Shown one piece after another: positions 13,347-42,322 of a stretch of 64,000 bases of DNA. Source of the DNA: Kaistia soli DSM 19436 (GTDB lineage: Bacteria > Pseudomonadota > Alphaproteobacteria > Rhizobiales > Kaistiaceae). The number at the start of each line of letters is the position of its first letter. Positions within the stretch are counted from its first letter, which is position 1. The stretch lies in the NCBI RefSeq assembly GCF_900129325.1, contig NZ_FQUP01000002.1:140668-204667 (forward strand). The letters run 5' to 3'. The notes beneath the pieces are model-generated. The model saw nothing but the letters and a program-made list of their open reading frames with translations. It was not told where the DNA came from and ran no database searches. A program made the translations under genes and the position numbers.

Positions 13347-14186
13347 ATGGGCGAAACTTCTTTCCCCACGAAATGGCTGGCCTGGCGGCCCGGCACAGTC
13401 AGACTGATGCTGGTGCTGTCCTTCGCTCCGATGGCAGCGCCGGCTCTCGCGAGAGCAGAGTGCATCCTTCAGCCAGGCGACGGCGGAACAGTTGCCGCGG
13501 TGATCGATGGCGCCACGCTGCGGCTGGACGACGGCCTTGTCGTCCGCCTCGCCGGGATCGCCGCGCCCGAGCCGCCGCTCGCGGCGACGCCGCCGGCCTG
13601 GCCACTTGCCGCAGCCTCGCGCGAAGCGCTCGTACGGCTTGCGCTCGGCAAGGATGTTGCACTCGAGTTCCCAGGCGCAGATCGTGATCGCTATGGCCGC
13701 GCCGTCGCGGTCGTGACCGCGGAGGGGGCAGCCGGATCGCTGGCCGAAGCCCTCCTCGCCGAGGGTCTCGCGCGCGTGATGCCGGGAGATGAGGCCTCAG
13801 ACTGCCTGTCCCCGTTGTTCGCAACTGAACGTGAGGCTCGCGAAAAGCGGCTTGGCCTTTGGGCCGATCCGTATTACGCCATCCGCGCGGCGCGCGACCC
13901 GGCCCTTGTCGATCGGGCTGACGCTTACGATCTGGTGGAAGGGCGCGTTGTTTCCGTCGGCGTCCGCGGCAGGGTCGCCTATCTCGATTTCGGCAGGGAC
14001 TGGCGAACAGATTTTACGGCGGTGGTGGTCGAGCCCGCGGGCGAGGCGCTTGCGGCGCTCGGACGGGCGCCGGTGTCGCTCAAGGGCCGTCAGGTCCGGC
14101 TGCGCGGCTGGATCGAACGACATGACGGACCGAGCCTCCGGGTGACCAATCCCGCGCAGCTTGAACTGTTGGACGACGGTGATTGA
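13347..14186 (+). CDS. Exported SNase-fold (thermonuclease family) protein with altered calcium site
   Basis: 279 residues with an N-terminal signal (hydrophobic 20-33, ALARA cleavage near 37). The staphylococcal-nuclease OB-fold runs from about 48 to 160. Against the family pattern, D54 (first Asp of IDG), R67, E75 and R118 (DRYGR) are kept, matching D19, R35, E43 and R87 of the classic enzyme. However the second Asp of DGD is A56 and the Asp of GIDAPE is A72, so two of three calcium ligands are gone. The C-terminal 110 residues form an extra OB-like part. The stop overlaps the next start (TGATG), coupling it to an M48 lipoprotein. Nuclease activity is doubtful. Confidence 0.85.
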   Translation: MGETSFPTKWLAWRPGTVRLMLVLSFAPMAAPALARAECILQPGDGGTVAAVIDGATLRLDDGLVVRLAGIAAPEPPLAATPPAWPLAAASREALVRLALGKDVALEFPGADRDRYGRAVAVVTAEGAAGSLAEALLAEGLARVMPGDEASDCLSPLFATEREAREKRLGLWADPYYAIRAARDPALVDRADAYDLVEGRVVSVGVRGRVAYLDFGRDWRTDFTAVVVEPAGEALAALGRAPVSLKGRQVRLRGWIERHDGPSLRVTNPAQLELLDDGD

Positions 14187-15691
14187 TGGCGAATGATAGC
14201 GCTGTAGGCGGCAACATCTCCGGGACGGCCAGGCGGCGGCCCGGGATCGCGGCAGCGCTTCTTGCCGCGATTTTGCTCGCCGGTTGCACCACGGCCTCGC
14301 TGGAGGGCACTTACGGCCCGCCGCCGACAGTCGCCGGAGCGCCGACGCAGCCGCCTGTCGATCCCGAGCAGGCCCGCATCGGCGCCGAGCAGCATCCGCG
14401 CATCGTCGCGAGCTACGGCGGCGTCTATCATGACGACAAGCTGGAACAGACGCTGGCCCGCATCGTCGGCCGCGCCGTCGCTGCTTCGGATGATCCCTCG
14501 CAGTCCTACCGCATCACGATCCTCAACAGCCCCTCGGTCAACGCTTTCGCGCTGCCGGGCGGTTATCTCTATGTGACGCGCGGCCTGCTGGCGCTTGCCA
14601 ATGATTCTTCGGAAGTCGCAGCGGTGATCGCGCACGAGATGGGCCACGTCACCGCCAATCACGCCATGCAGCGCCAGAACAAGGCGCAGGCCGCCGTCAT
14701 CGTCAGCCGCGTCGTTACCGACGTGTTGCAGGACGGCGATGCCGGCAAGGTGGCACTCGCTTCCAGCCAGCGCACGCTCGCCGCCTTCTCGCAGCAGCAG
14801 GAGCTCGAGGCCGACGCAATCGGCGTGCGTACCATCGGCAAGGCCGGATACGATCCTTTCGCTGCCGCGCGCTTCCTCGATCTCATGGGGCGCTATTCCG
14901 CCTACAAGTCGGCCGGCACCGTGCAGGACAAGCGGCCCGACTTCCTCGCCAGCCATCCGGCAACGCCGCAGCGGGTCGAGCTCGCGATCCGTGCCGCGCG
15001 GCAGTTCGGCGCGCCCGGGATCGGCGAGGTCGATCGCGACCGCTACCTCGCCGGGATCAATGGCATCGTCTATGGCGATGACCCGTCGCAGGGCTTCGTG
15101 CGCGGCAAGACCTTCATGCATCCGAGCCTCGGCGTCGGCTTTACCGTTCCCGATGGCTTCGTGCTCGACAATACCAGCGATGCGGTGCTTGCGACCGGAC
15201 CCGACGGAACGGCGCTGCGCTTCGATGGCGCCAATTTGCCGGCCGGCTCATCGCTCTCCGCCTATATCGCGTCCGGCTGGGTCAACGGCCTCGACACGAC
15301 GACGATCAAGACCTTCACGGTCAACGGGCTCGAGGCGGCGTCCGCCCGCGCCGAAGCCAAGGGGTGGGTGTTTCGCATCGCCGTCATCCGCGTCGGCGAC
15401 AGCGCAACCTATCGCTTCATCTTTGCCAATGAGAGCGACACGCCGGGCCTCGAAAGGGCCGCCGATGCAACCGTCGCCAGTTTCCGGCGCCTGACGCCGC
15501 AGGAGGCCGCCGCGCTTCAGCCGCTGCGCATTCGCGTCGTGACGGTGCAACCCGGCGATACGATCGCCTCGATGGCAGCCAAGATGCGAGGTGTCGAGCG
15601 GCCGGAGGATCTCTTCCTGATCCTGAATGACATCAAGCCGGGCACAGGACTTCCCGCCGTAGGCGAGAAGGTCAAGATCGTCGGGGAATAG
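14186..15691 (+). CDS. M48 family metalloprotease, lipoprotein with LysM-like C-terminus
   Basis: 501 residues from ATG 14186 (a TTG precedes it). A lipobox LLAGC places the lipidated cysteine at residue 34, so it is an envelope lipoprotein. The M48 active site HEMGH (zinc ligands and catalytic Glu) lies near residue 152, with the third ligand in ELEADAIG. The last 55 residues (VTVQPGDTIASMAAKM ... VGEKVKIV) resemble a LysM peptidoglycan-binding repeat. Comparable to BepA-like periplasmic proteases in outer-membrane protein quality control. Translationally coupled to the SNase-fold gene. Confidence 0.9.
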   Translation: MANDSAVGGNISGTARRRPGIAAALLAAILLAGCTTASLEGTYGPPPTVAGAPTQPPVDPEQARIGAEQHPRIVASYGGVYHDDKLEQTLARIVGRAVAASDDPSQSYRITILNSPSVNAFALPGGYLYVTRGLLALANDSSEVAAVIAHEMGHVTANHAMQRQNKAQAAVIVSRVVTDVLQDGDAGKVALASSQRTLAAFSQQQELEADAIGVRTIGKAGYDPFAAARFLDLMGRYSAYKSAGTVQDKRPDFLASHPATPQRVELAIRAARQFGAPGIGEVDRDRYLAGINGIVYGDDPSQGFVRGKTFMHPSLGVGFTVPDGFVLDNTSDAVLATGPDGTALRFDGANLPAGSSLSAYIASGWVNGLDTTTIKTFTVNGLEAASARAEAKGWVFRIAVIRVGDSATYRFIFANESDTPGLERAADATVASFRRLTPQEAAALQPLRIRVVTVQPGDTIASMAAKMRGVERPEDLFLILNDIKPGTGLPAVGEKVKIVGE

Positions 15692-39000: not shown

Positions 39001-39913
39001 AGATGCCGCGCCCCCCGGCCGCCTTGCCGATCGCGTGGATCGCCTGCTCATAGTCGGCGAGATAGCGCGCCGCATCGGCGGCTGTCATCGCCGCCTCGCC
39101 GAGCATGTCATAGGAATAGCGGAAGCCCTTCGCCTCCATGCGGCGACTGTTGGCGAGCGCCTCGCCGATCGTCTGTCCGGTCACGAACTGCTCGCCCATC
39201 AGCCGCATGGCGATCTCGACGCCCTTGCGGATCAGCGGCTCGCCGCCCTTGCCGATCAGCCGCGTCAAAGCGGCGGAAAGCCCCCGCTCGCTGTTGGTGG
39301 TGTTGAGCTTGCCGGTGACGACGAGGCCCCAGGTCGCCGCGTTGACGAACAGCGAGGGGCTGTGTCCGACATGCGCGCGCCAATCGCCGGCCGAGATCTT
39401 GTCGCGGATGAGCGCCTCGCGGGTGGGACGATCGGGAATGCGCAGCAGCGCCTCTGCAAGGCACATCAGCGCCACGCCTTCCTGGGTCGACAGCGCATAC
39501 TCCCGCACGAGGCCATCAACGCGGCCGGCCGGCTCCTTGAGGCGCAGCCGCTCGACGAGCCCACGCGCCGTCTGCGCCGCCCGGGCATTCGCCGCTGGGT
39601 CAAGCCGGGCCTGGGGAATCAGCAGCGGCAGGCATTCCGTCTCCGGCATGCGTGTCGCCGCCGTGATCCGCGCCCTGAGCGCGCTTTGCGGGGGGAGATC
39701 GCGTGCGAACGCGACGAATGGGCCTTGCAGAGGCTGTGCGAGAGGCTCCGCCTCTTCCTCCGCGTCGAAGCGCTCGCCGCGCTCGGCCTTCTCGATCGCG
39801 GCAATGACGCCGGTCCGAGCCAGCCAATGCGGCGAACGCCCCACCAGGCCTGCGGCGGCCTTGAGCCGTGCCCGCAACGCCTCATCCACCTTGATCGCTA
39901 TCGTTCCCGACAT
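36062..39913 (-). CDS. putA: PutA: proline dehydrogenase / glutamate-semialdehyde dehydrogenase with RHH DNA-binding domain
   Basis: 1283 residues. Oxidises proline to glutamate in two steps. Order: N-terminal ribbon-helix-helix (1-48, SGTIAIKVDEALRARLKAAA then SPHWLART), proline dehydrogenase barrel (about 150-560; VRLVKGAYWDSEIKRAQ, ATHNAQTLA, YEFQCLHGMGE), P5C dehydrogenase (about 630-1100; SPWNFPLAIFTGQ, catalytic Glu in LIAETGGQN, catalytic Cys in SAGQRCSALR), then the C-terminal ALDH-like domain. In E. coli PutA the strand residues T5, G7, K9 contact DNA; here T4, A6, K8, so specificity may differ. Start ATG 39913; an upstream in-frame ATG (39970) would overlap the putative operators. 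Confidence 0.95.
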   Translation of the reverse strand: MSGTIAIKVDEALRARLKAAAGLVGRSPHWLARTGVIAAIEKAERGERFDAEEEAEPLAQPLQGPFVAFARDLPPQSALRARITAATRMPETECLPLLIPQARLDPAANARAAQTARGLVERLRLKEPAGRVDGLVREYALSTQEGVALMCLAEALLRIPDRPTREALIRDKISAGDWRAHVGHSPSLFVNAATWGLVVTGKLNTTNSERGLSAALTRLIGKGGEPLIRKGVEIAMRLMGEQFVTGQTIGEALANSRRMEAKGFRYSYDMLGEAAMTAADAARYLADYEQAIHAIGKAAGGRGIYEGPGISVKLSALHPRYARAQRDRVMTELLPRLKDLAVLAKRYDIGLNIDAEEADRLEISLDLLEALAFDPDLAGWNGIGFVIQAYGKRCPFVIDWLIDLARRSRRRIMVRLVKGAYWDSEIKRAQEAGLEDFPVFTRKLHTDVSYLACARRLLSAPDAIFPQFATHNAQTLAAVMEMAGANYYPGQYEFQCLHGMGEPLYEEVVGEDKLGRPCRIYAPVGTHDTLLAYLVRRLLENGANTSFVNRISDTEVPVEALIADPVTEALAVEPVGAPHPKIALPRGLYGAARQNSAGIDLANEQRLAALAVALIGSAATPWCASPLVGADALAGDEVDILNPADRRDRVGGMIVASPDAIDAAFAAAEAIAPIWSATPASERAAALERAADALETRLPELVGLIVREAGRTIPNAVAEVREAVDFLRYYAGEARARFAADTHRPLGPVVAISPWNFPLAIFTGQVAAALAAGNPVLAKPAEETPLIAAEAVRILRASGVPTAAVQLLPGAGDVGAALVADRRVRAVVFTGSTDVARAINRSLASRLTPEGHTLPLIAETGGQNAMIVDSSALAEQVAGDAILSAFDSAGQRCSALRVLCVQEDVADRMIAMLKGAMAELSIGDPALLSTDIGPVISQEAAERLEAHIAAMAARGFKVHRLAQGDAGAHGSFVAPALIEIEAIEDVPGEVFGPVLHVLRYRRDGLDLLVDAINGTGYGLTFGLHTRIDETIAAVTARIHAGNLYVNRNVVGAVVGVQPFGGNGLSGTGPKAGGPLYLGRLVQPHDDAAGAALPSGTPDPVASAFADWLARRGDSDAAARVRGFIARSNVGAEQILAGPVGQRDSYFTRPRGRVLISAQTSGGLMTALGAVLATGNRALLSPGEASAGLLGSLPPEIARRIDVVEDAEDMPLGAVLHEGDADRLALLAERIAAREGPLVAVHAVSSDGLAAGRETFYLDGLVEEVSLSINTAAAGGNASLMSIG

Positions 39914-40232
39914 CGTCCAGATCCCCAGCCGCGATGAAAAGGTAATACCATTCCTCAAATGAGGTGTCACCTTCTACGCGAACAGCGTCCTCAGTGGTAA
40001 CACCTCCATCCTGCACCCCTCGCCGCCCATTTCCGTCGTCCGCGCAAGCATTCTCGACCCCTAGGCGAGTTGCGACGGGCGGGATGCTGTGCTAACGAAC
40101 GCGCGGCTTACGGGCGGGCCATTCTCGACGGCTTCTAGCCGCTTCGACAAAATCCAATCCGTTCAGTGTGTTGCACGGCAGCGACCGGAGCGGGACCGAA
40201 GCCCGGTCGTGGCGGCTTAAAGCGAGGATCAG
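39914..40232. promoter_or_regulatory. putA / atpH divergent control region
   Basis: 319 bases without a gene. It holds three GGTrwyACC semi-palindromes close to putA (listed separately). For the atp operon, TTGCGA at 40070-40075 with CTAACG at 40092-40097 (16-base spacer) is the best but weak promoter match. No terminator. Confidence 0.35.
39941..40006. promoter_or_regulatory. Candidate PutA operator array: three phased GGTrwyACC sites
   Basis: GGTAATACC (39941-39949), GGTGTCACC (39963-39971, inside the perfect palindrome AGGTGTCACCT at 39962-39972) and GGTAACACC (39996-40004). Centres are 39945, 39967 and 40000: 22 and 33 bases apart, i.e. two and three helical turns of 11. The sites lie 28 to 91 bases upstream of the putA ATG. 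The protein encoded next door carries a ribbon-helix-helix, so autorepression is the natural reading, but another regulator is possible. Confidence 0.5.

Positions 40233-42322
<2,090 letters not shown>

Follow-up and report, generated by a model that had tools for sequence, protein, structure and literature searches.

PutA is a textbook enzyme that doubles as its own repressor. In the E. coli put control region it reportedly recognises operators with a GTTGCA core (Zhou et al. 2008, structure 2rbf), and T5, G7 and K9 of the protein are said, in the same study, to contact the bases. The accessible parts of PMC5293562, PMC8249747 and PMC5879082 report a proline-driven switch of E. coli PutA from DNA to the membrane. 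According to the available portion of PMC8249747, genomic SELEX found E. coli PutA bound only to the putA/putP spacer, and the available portion of PMC9132996 gives Lys9 a role in DNA binding. Among alphaproteobacteria, the accessible text of PMC6168545 presents Caulobacter PutA as regulated by the Lrp-like PutR.

Here we analyse the upstream region of a putA gene in a 64-kb stretch of alphaproteobacterial DNA (hereafter the window), which carries three GGTNNNACC sites. Among the literature matches listed, where subscription journals are thinly covered and sources were accessible in part, we found no description of GGTNNNACC as a PutA operator or of a core variant of the PutA operator.

Three phased sites in front of putA

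The putA product classes as a trifunctional (type C) PutA by its ribbon-helix-helix (RHH), both enzyme domains and the equivalog model. It scores 1995.8 bits against NF008772 (cut-off 1750) and carries the Pfam domains PF21775 (PutA RHH), PF01619 (PRODH) and PF00171 (aldehyde dehydrogenase). The RHH that the initial annotation had ascribed to this protein is recovered by PF21775 (28.9 bits, cut-off 27) and by structures 2gpe (E 1.1e-7) and 2rbf (E 1.3e-7). Alignment to these two structures also bears out the triad that it had named, T4-A6-K8 where E. coli has T5-G7-K9.

Each of the three sites matches the GGT/ACC arms at 6 of 6 bases, and their cores in the putA upstream are GTT, GAC and ATT (Table 1). 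Re-reading of the coordinates reproduces the centres given in the initial annotation (39945, 39967 and 40000) with spacings of 22 and 33 bases, and the claimed place of the trio, 28-91 bases upstream of putA, is correct because the ATG lies at 39913 on the minus strand. The region claimed, 39941-40006, begins correctly and runs two bases past the end of the last site at 40004. The E. coli-type GTTGCA with its TGC core is absent from the 260 bases upstream of putA. Two other features were seen in the window. The segment 39953-39964, CCTCAAATGAGG, has 5-base inverted arms that overlap the middle site and are not conserved in the related genomes G012, G006 and G011. GGTTGCACC at 14282 and GGTGCAACC at 15544 both lie within the ORF 14183-15691, most likely by chance.

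Table 1. Features of the putA locus, with positions in the window
Feature	Positions	Strand	Remarks
Distal operator-like site GGTGTTACC (putA sense)	39996..40004	-	Centre 87 bases before putA ATG; + strand GGTAACACC
Middle operator-like site GGTGACACC (putA sense)	39963..39971	-	Centre -54; + strand GGTGTCACC
Proximal operator-like site GGTATTACC (putA sense)	39941..39949	-	Centre -32; + strand GGTAATACC
Possible promoter hexamers GTGACA, 17 bases, TATTAC	39942..39970	-	By eye, inside middle and proximal sites; weak
putA, trifunctional proline dehydrogenase / glutamate-semialdehyde dehydrogenase / RHH repressor, 1283 aa	36062..39913	-	NF008772, Pfam
RHH DNA-binding domain, residues 1-47	39773..39913	-	PF21775; 2gpe, 2rbf, 2jxg, 2ay0, 4o8a
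Codons G3-T4-I5-A6-I7-K8	39890..39907	-	Strand aligned with E. coli T4-T5-M6-G7-V8-K9
atpH, divergent neighbour	40233..40793	+	Same neighbour in G012, G003, G002, G008

The doubt raised in the initial annotation, that such sites might be equally common elsewhere, receives a mixed answer. Single GGTNNNACC sites are ordinary in the window (8 vs 6.75 expected), and the 5.2-Mb genome to which the window belongs shows no excess of pairs with gaps of 1-31 (3 vs 12 for the reversed control pattern); yet two of these three genome pairs belong to the putA trio. No dinucleotide shuffle out of 20,000 reaches three sites in the 200-bp upstream. What is unusual about the trio is its place and not the frequency of its sites.

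Link to the RHH and the general form of the operator

Of 67 RHH-putA genes, 52 have a GGTNNNACC site within 200 bp before the gene, vs 1 of 70 RHH-less ones (L093), where RHH-less means that the alignment to the window PutA begins at a residue of at least 28, a class in which a strongly diverged RHH could hide. The RHH-less set was given the longer stretch, 380 bp before the match. Taking the alphaproteobacterial genome collection alone, the site is present at 24 of 29 RHH loci vs 0 of 29 RHH-less loci. The p-values of this link overstate independence, since many rows are close relatives (e.g. Pseudomonas). The full site is absent from 15 of the 67 RHH upstreams, most of which have 5-of-6 sites. 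When 576 gapped palindromes (64 triplets with gaps of 0-8) are ranked by the number of RHH upstreams that contain them, GGT...ACC comes first with 52; the runner-up is found in 30 RHH and 8 RHH-less upstreams. The check named in the initial annotation, whether sites and phasing persist only with the RHH, comes out in favour: both track the RHH and are nearly absent without it, which makes a PutA operator much the likeliest interpretation.

These counts are defined as follows. One collection provided 80 loci (38 RHH, 41 RHH-less), with L083 omitted (match from residue 132, contig end), and the two genome collections may have species in common. Upstreams are short in two rows, L069 (116 bases) and L063 (189 bases). 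Omitted were duplicates (L112-L119, L164, L165, L167), short RHH-only or other proteins (L155, L159, L160, L163, L228-L238) and aldehyde dehydrogenases (L017-L031). Fourteen matches of one search and 10 RHH-covering matches of the phylum search, all of them lacking a locus sequence, stand outside the counts. The class search around G937, covering 369 genomes, gave no new RHH-PutA.

Most RHH-putA upstreams have the core TGC, in GGTTGCACC, its complement or a near form, and these TGC-core sites are often 10 or 22-23 bp apart. In the putP-putA intergenic region of E. coli K-12 the five GTTGCA sites read GGTTGCACT, GGTTGCACC, GGTTGCACA, AGTTGCAAC and AGTTGCACC; GGTTGCACC, at -206, has full GGT/ACC arms, and in the remaining four sites 4 or 5 of the 6 arm bases match. 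As judged from these upstreams, the usual PutA operator is GGT-TGC-ACC, a 9-bp pseudo-palindrome with GTTGCA as its inner part, and since GTTGCA lies inside GGT-core-ACC, the window sites appear to be this operator with a different core. We rule out a motif that has nothing to do with GTTGCA: the latter is the middle of GGTTGCACC, whose arms are common to the window sites. The initial annotation had set the sites apart from GTTGCA and proposed an uncharacterised operator type. The difference stands for the core but not for the kind, as the GGT/ACC arms and the phasing of about 11 bp are common to both; the proposed type is retained as a PutA operator and becomes a core variant of the known one.

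The phasing noted in the initial annotation holds generally, with a loose exact period. Successive full sites give 48 spacings, of which 41 equal 10, 21-23 or 32-34, and with one spacing of 100 removed the vector length R is 0.84 at a period of 11, 0.78 at 10.5 and 0.79 at 12.

We consider it highly probable that the adjacent RHH-bearing PutA controls its own gene through the three GGTNNNACC sites as autogenous operators. The N-terminal RHH dimer of PutA would bind each 9-bp pseudo-palindrome, and the dimers, placed at multiples of about 11 bp, would line up along the same side of the helix and cover the putA promoter. When proline is scarce, bound PutA would occlude the promoter and putA would be off. 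Proline would reduce the flavin, upon which PutA would go to the membrane as enzyme with the relief of repression. Among 14 genomes of the window's genus no PutP-family protein exceeds the cut-off (five of the 14 have weak matches, the window's own genome has none), so the control here is probably of putA alone; a wider put regulon, which we considered, is unsupported. Some control of atpH, which diverges from putA and lies 229 bases from the distal site, is conceivable.

Operator core and DNA-reading strand

Seven of the 14 genomes of the genus have an RHH-PutA, and the site pair stands at putA in six of these seven and in none of the other seven; G008 has an RHH-PutA, yet only degenerate 5-of-6 sites. 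The order acnA-ccm-putA-atpH is common to the window, G012, G003, G002 and G008, and the far upstream regions of G006 and G011 align to that of the window with 112 of 150 columns invariant. G001 encodes a long PutA without the RHH (L187, G001:C1:564000-577000), which shares 63% identity with the window's and is next to a gene for a Glu/Leu-type dehydrogenase. Its upstream is free of GGTNNNACC sites, and none of atpH, ccmB and acnA turned up in the surrounding 13 kb. A further, shorter PutA match in G001 is on C7.

When the seven genomes are aligned, all four whose PutA has G-T-A-K in the DNA-reading strand (the window's, G012, G006 and G011; A-type hereafter) show GGTGACACC as the middle site. 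The same column holds GGTTGCACC, GGTTGCACC and GGTTGCTCC in the three T-T-G-K congeners. All 9 bases of the middle site are invariant in the A-type genomes. At the distal site the arms are kept in G012 and G011 and have one change in G006, with a core that varies among the A-type genomes; at the proximal site G012 differs at one arm base. Of the 27 site columns, 20 are identical in all four genomes (arms 16/18, cores 4/9); of the 67 columns that separate the sites from one another and from the ATG, 9 are. The outer sites of the T-T-G-K congeners are also non-TGC (e.g. G003 GGTGAAACC, G002 GGTTAAACC); as distal and proximal cores are thus non-TGC in both residue types, the middle site alone separates the types within the genus. 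The GTG at 39970 is ruled out as the putA start, the upstream extension being variable in length and sequence across the A-type genomes.

Our wider survey comprises 92 RHH loci, namely the 67 above and 25 of the 26 added by the phylum search (L194 was dropped, its frame being wrong). A TGC-core site was counted when it had at least 5 of 6 arm bases within 200 bp. Such a site is present in 80 of 82 T-T-x-G-x-K loci, in the single S-T-G-K and the single Q-T-G-K locus, in none of the four G-T-A-K loci, not in the one G-T-G-K locus (G667, whose order is represented by 7 genomes only) and in none of three T-T-G-R loci with Arg for Lys9. Its retention in 80 of 82 loci over alpha-, beta- and gammaproteobacteria makes TGC look strongly selected in T-T-G-K PutAs. 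The two exceptions differ in kind. In L061 (Yersinia) GTTGCA is present and good arms are absent in the 200 bp; in L067 (Alcaligenes) two GGGTTAACC palindromes without TGC lie 84 and 62 bases before putA, 22 bp apart. The Alcaligenes locus genuinely contradicts a simple residue rule, as its sites changed and its residues are the same.

In G667 (L152) the GGTNNNACC sites GGTTATACC, GGTATAACC and GGTTTTACC, with A/T cores, stand 50, 29 and 8 bases before putA, in 21-bp steps, and precede a G-T-I-G-I-K PutA; its relatives in its genus with T-T-I-G have TGC-core sites. The three Arg-for-Lys9 PutAs are L064 (Morganella), L072 (Proteus) and L195 (G804). The upstreams of L064 and L072 keep GTTGCA and have lost the outer G. 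These PutAs hint that Lys9 goes with the operator arms.

In a tree of 40 PutAs calculated with the RHH left out, the four G-T-A-K PutAs stand together (100/99) inside T-T-G-K lineages, and G667 stands inside another T-T-G-K group. By this placement the change is derived, made once in the genus and once, at the Thr-to-Gly position only, in G667; the four G-T-A-K genomes together represent one evolutionary event. A 1-in-1000 estimate for the two Thr-to-Gly branches, rough and made after the fact, plays no part here. The remark of the initial annotation on the contact residues gains weight, since the core change accompanies T-T-x-G-x-K to G-T-x-A-x-K in one genus and at one locus. The Thr-to-Gly change that precedes the triad, absent from that annotation, goes with the missing TGC core in two separate lineages.

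The sites, their spacing, the link with the RHH, the conservation of the arms and the derived state of the change are all obtained by sequence comparison, and on this footing the window and its relatives apparently hold a re-specified repressor/operator pair. Within the genus the middle-site core would have gone from TGC to GAC with the GGT/ACC arms unchanged, alongside Thr-to-Gly and Gly-to-Ala in the DNA-reading strand, and the protein change may be its cause. We tentatively propose that operator reading by the RHH has two separable components, with Lys8 (E. coli Lys9) going with the arms and the preceding strand residues with the core. Thr-to-Gly, together with Gly-to-Ala in the genus, would then have re-specified TGC to GAC, and in G667 to TAT/ATA/TTT. 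As there are two lineages and one counter-example, we put this causal role of the strand change at slightly short of an even chance.

The re-specification is opposed by a simpler account, which leaves PutA binding as it is: the core would be contacted without specificity, the RHH would need only the GGT/ACC arms (and DNA shape), and TGC would have drifted to GAC or to A/T-rich cores. The outer-site cores, diverse in both residue types, agree with such drift, as do the distal-site cores that differ among the four A-type genomes and the Alcaligenes sites, changed with the strand residues unchanged. However, drift does not explain why TGC is kept in nearly all T-T-G-K loci (80/82), nor why GAC is invariant in the middle sites of 4/4 A-type genomes amid diverged flanks. 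We regard it as rather unlikely.

Other readings and comparison with known systems

The middle and proximal sites might instead be conserved as the putA promoter, with the changed middle core making a stronger -35 box. The window has GTGACA (-35) and TATTAC (-10) with a 17-base spacer, and the 22-base centre spacing is constant in four genomes. However, a strict sigma-70 scan found no promoter here, the -10 match is poor by eye in G012, G006 and G011, and the GG and CC arms, the distal site and the RHH link are left unexplained, which makes a promoter improbable as the whole explanation. It may well be true in addition to the PutA operator reading, with the operator laid over the promoter, and an overlapping -10 box could explain the A/T-rich proximal cores in both types.

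Operators of FadR-type GntR regulators can have a similar gapped form, TGGTNNNACCA, which the GGTNNNACC form resembles, and the sites could be read as those of a GntR-type regulator. Further GGTNNNACC pairs, not shared between these genomes, may be GntR sites. The accessible text of PMC5343134 gives the GntR regulator HypR as predicted to control putA in Shewanellaceae and Aeromonas. However, operators of this kind should be independent of the PutA RHH, and the sites instead follow it (24/29 vs 0/29 RHH-less alphaproteobacterial loci); no regulator gene is evident beside putA, where the neighbours are ccm, acnA and atp genes and the flanking ORFs were profile-scanned in part. We rule this reading out as very improbable. 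One non-putA GGTNNNACC pair was seen in two A-type genomes, G011 (L180 1500-1540) and the matching place of G006, between LysR-like and peroxiredoxin-like genes (named by eye), and probably belongs to another regulator. Chance matches, for which the ordinary number of single sites in the window and the genome pairs, no commoner than the reversed control, might be cited, are ruled out as next to inconceivable by the shuffles, by conservation amid diverged flanks and by the RHH link.

In the light of the survey, the PutA operator becomes a GGT-core-ACC pseudo-palindrome of 9 bp that occurs in alpha-, beta- and gammaproteobacteria. A further outcome is a small group of natural relatives, all of one genus and compared at a single locus, in which core and reading strand changed together, and this group makes a change of RHH specificity testable with a few short proteins and oligonucleotides. 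If true, two-part reading would mean that operator and repressor changed naturally and step by step at a single locus.

Compared with the Caulobacter system, the window has the same enzyme and pathway, but Caulobacter uses a separate regulator, PutR, according to the accessible part of PMC6168545; the RHH-less PutAs of the window's genus are without the sites. Pseudomonas, with an RHH-PutA (structures 2jxg/2jxh/2jxi), likewise has site pairs upstream of putA, there of the GGTTGCACC type. Its spacing, however, is a 10-base tandem and its cores are TGC, whereas the window has spacings of 22 and 33 bases and the cores GAC, ATT and GTT. Unlike E. coli put, the window sites lack the TGC core, and the divergent neighbour is atpH rather than putP, without shared putP control. 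What the window has in common with E. coli put is an RHH-PutA, several phased sites before putA and the GGT/ACC arms.
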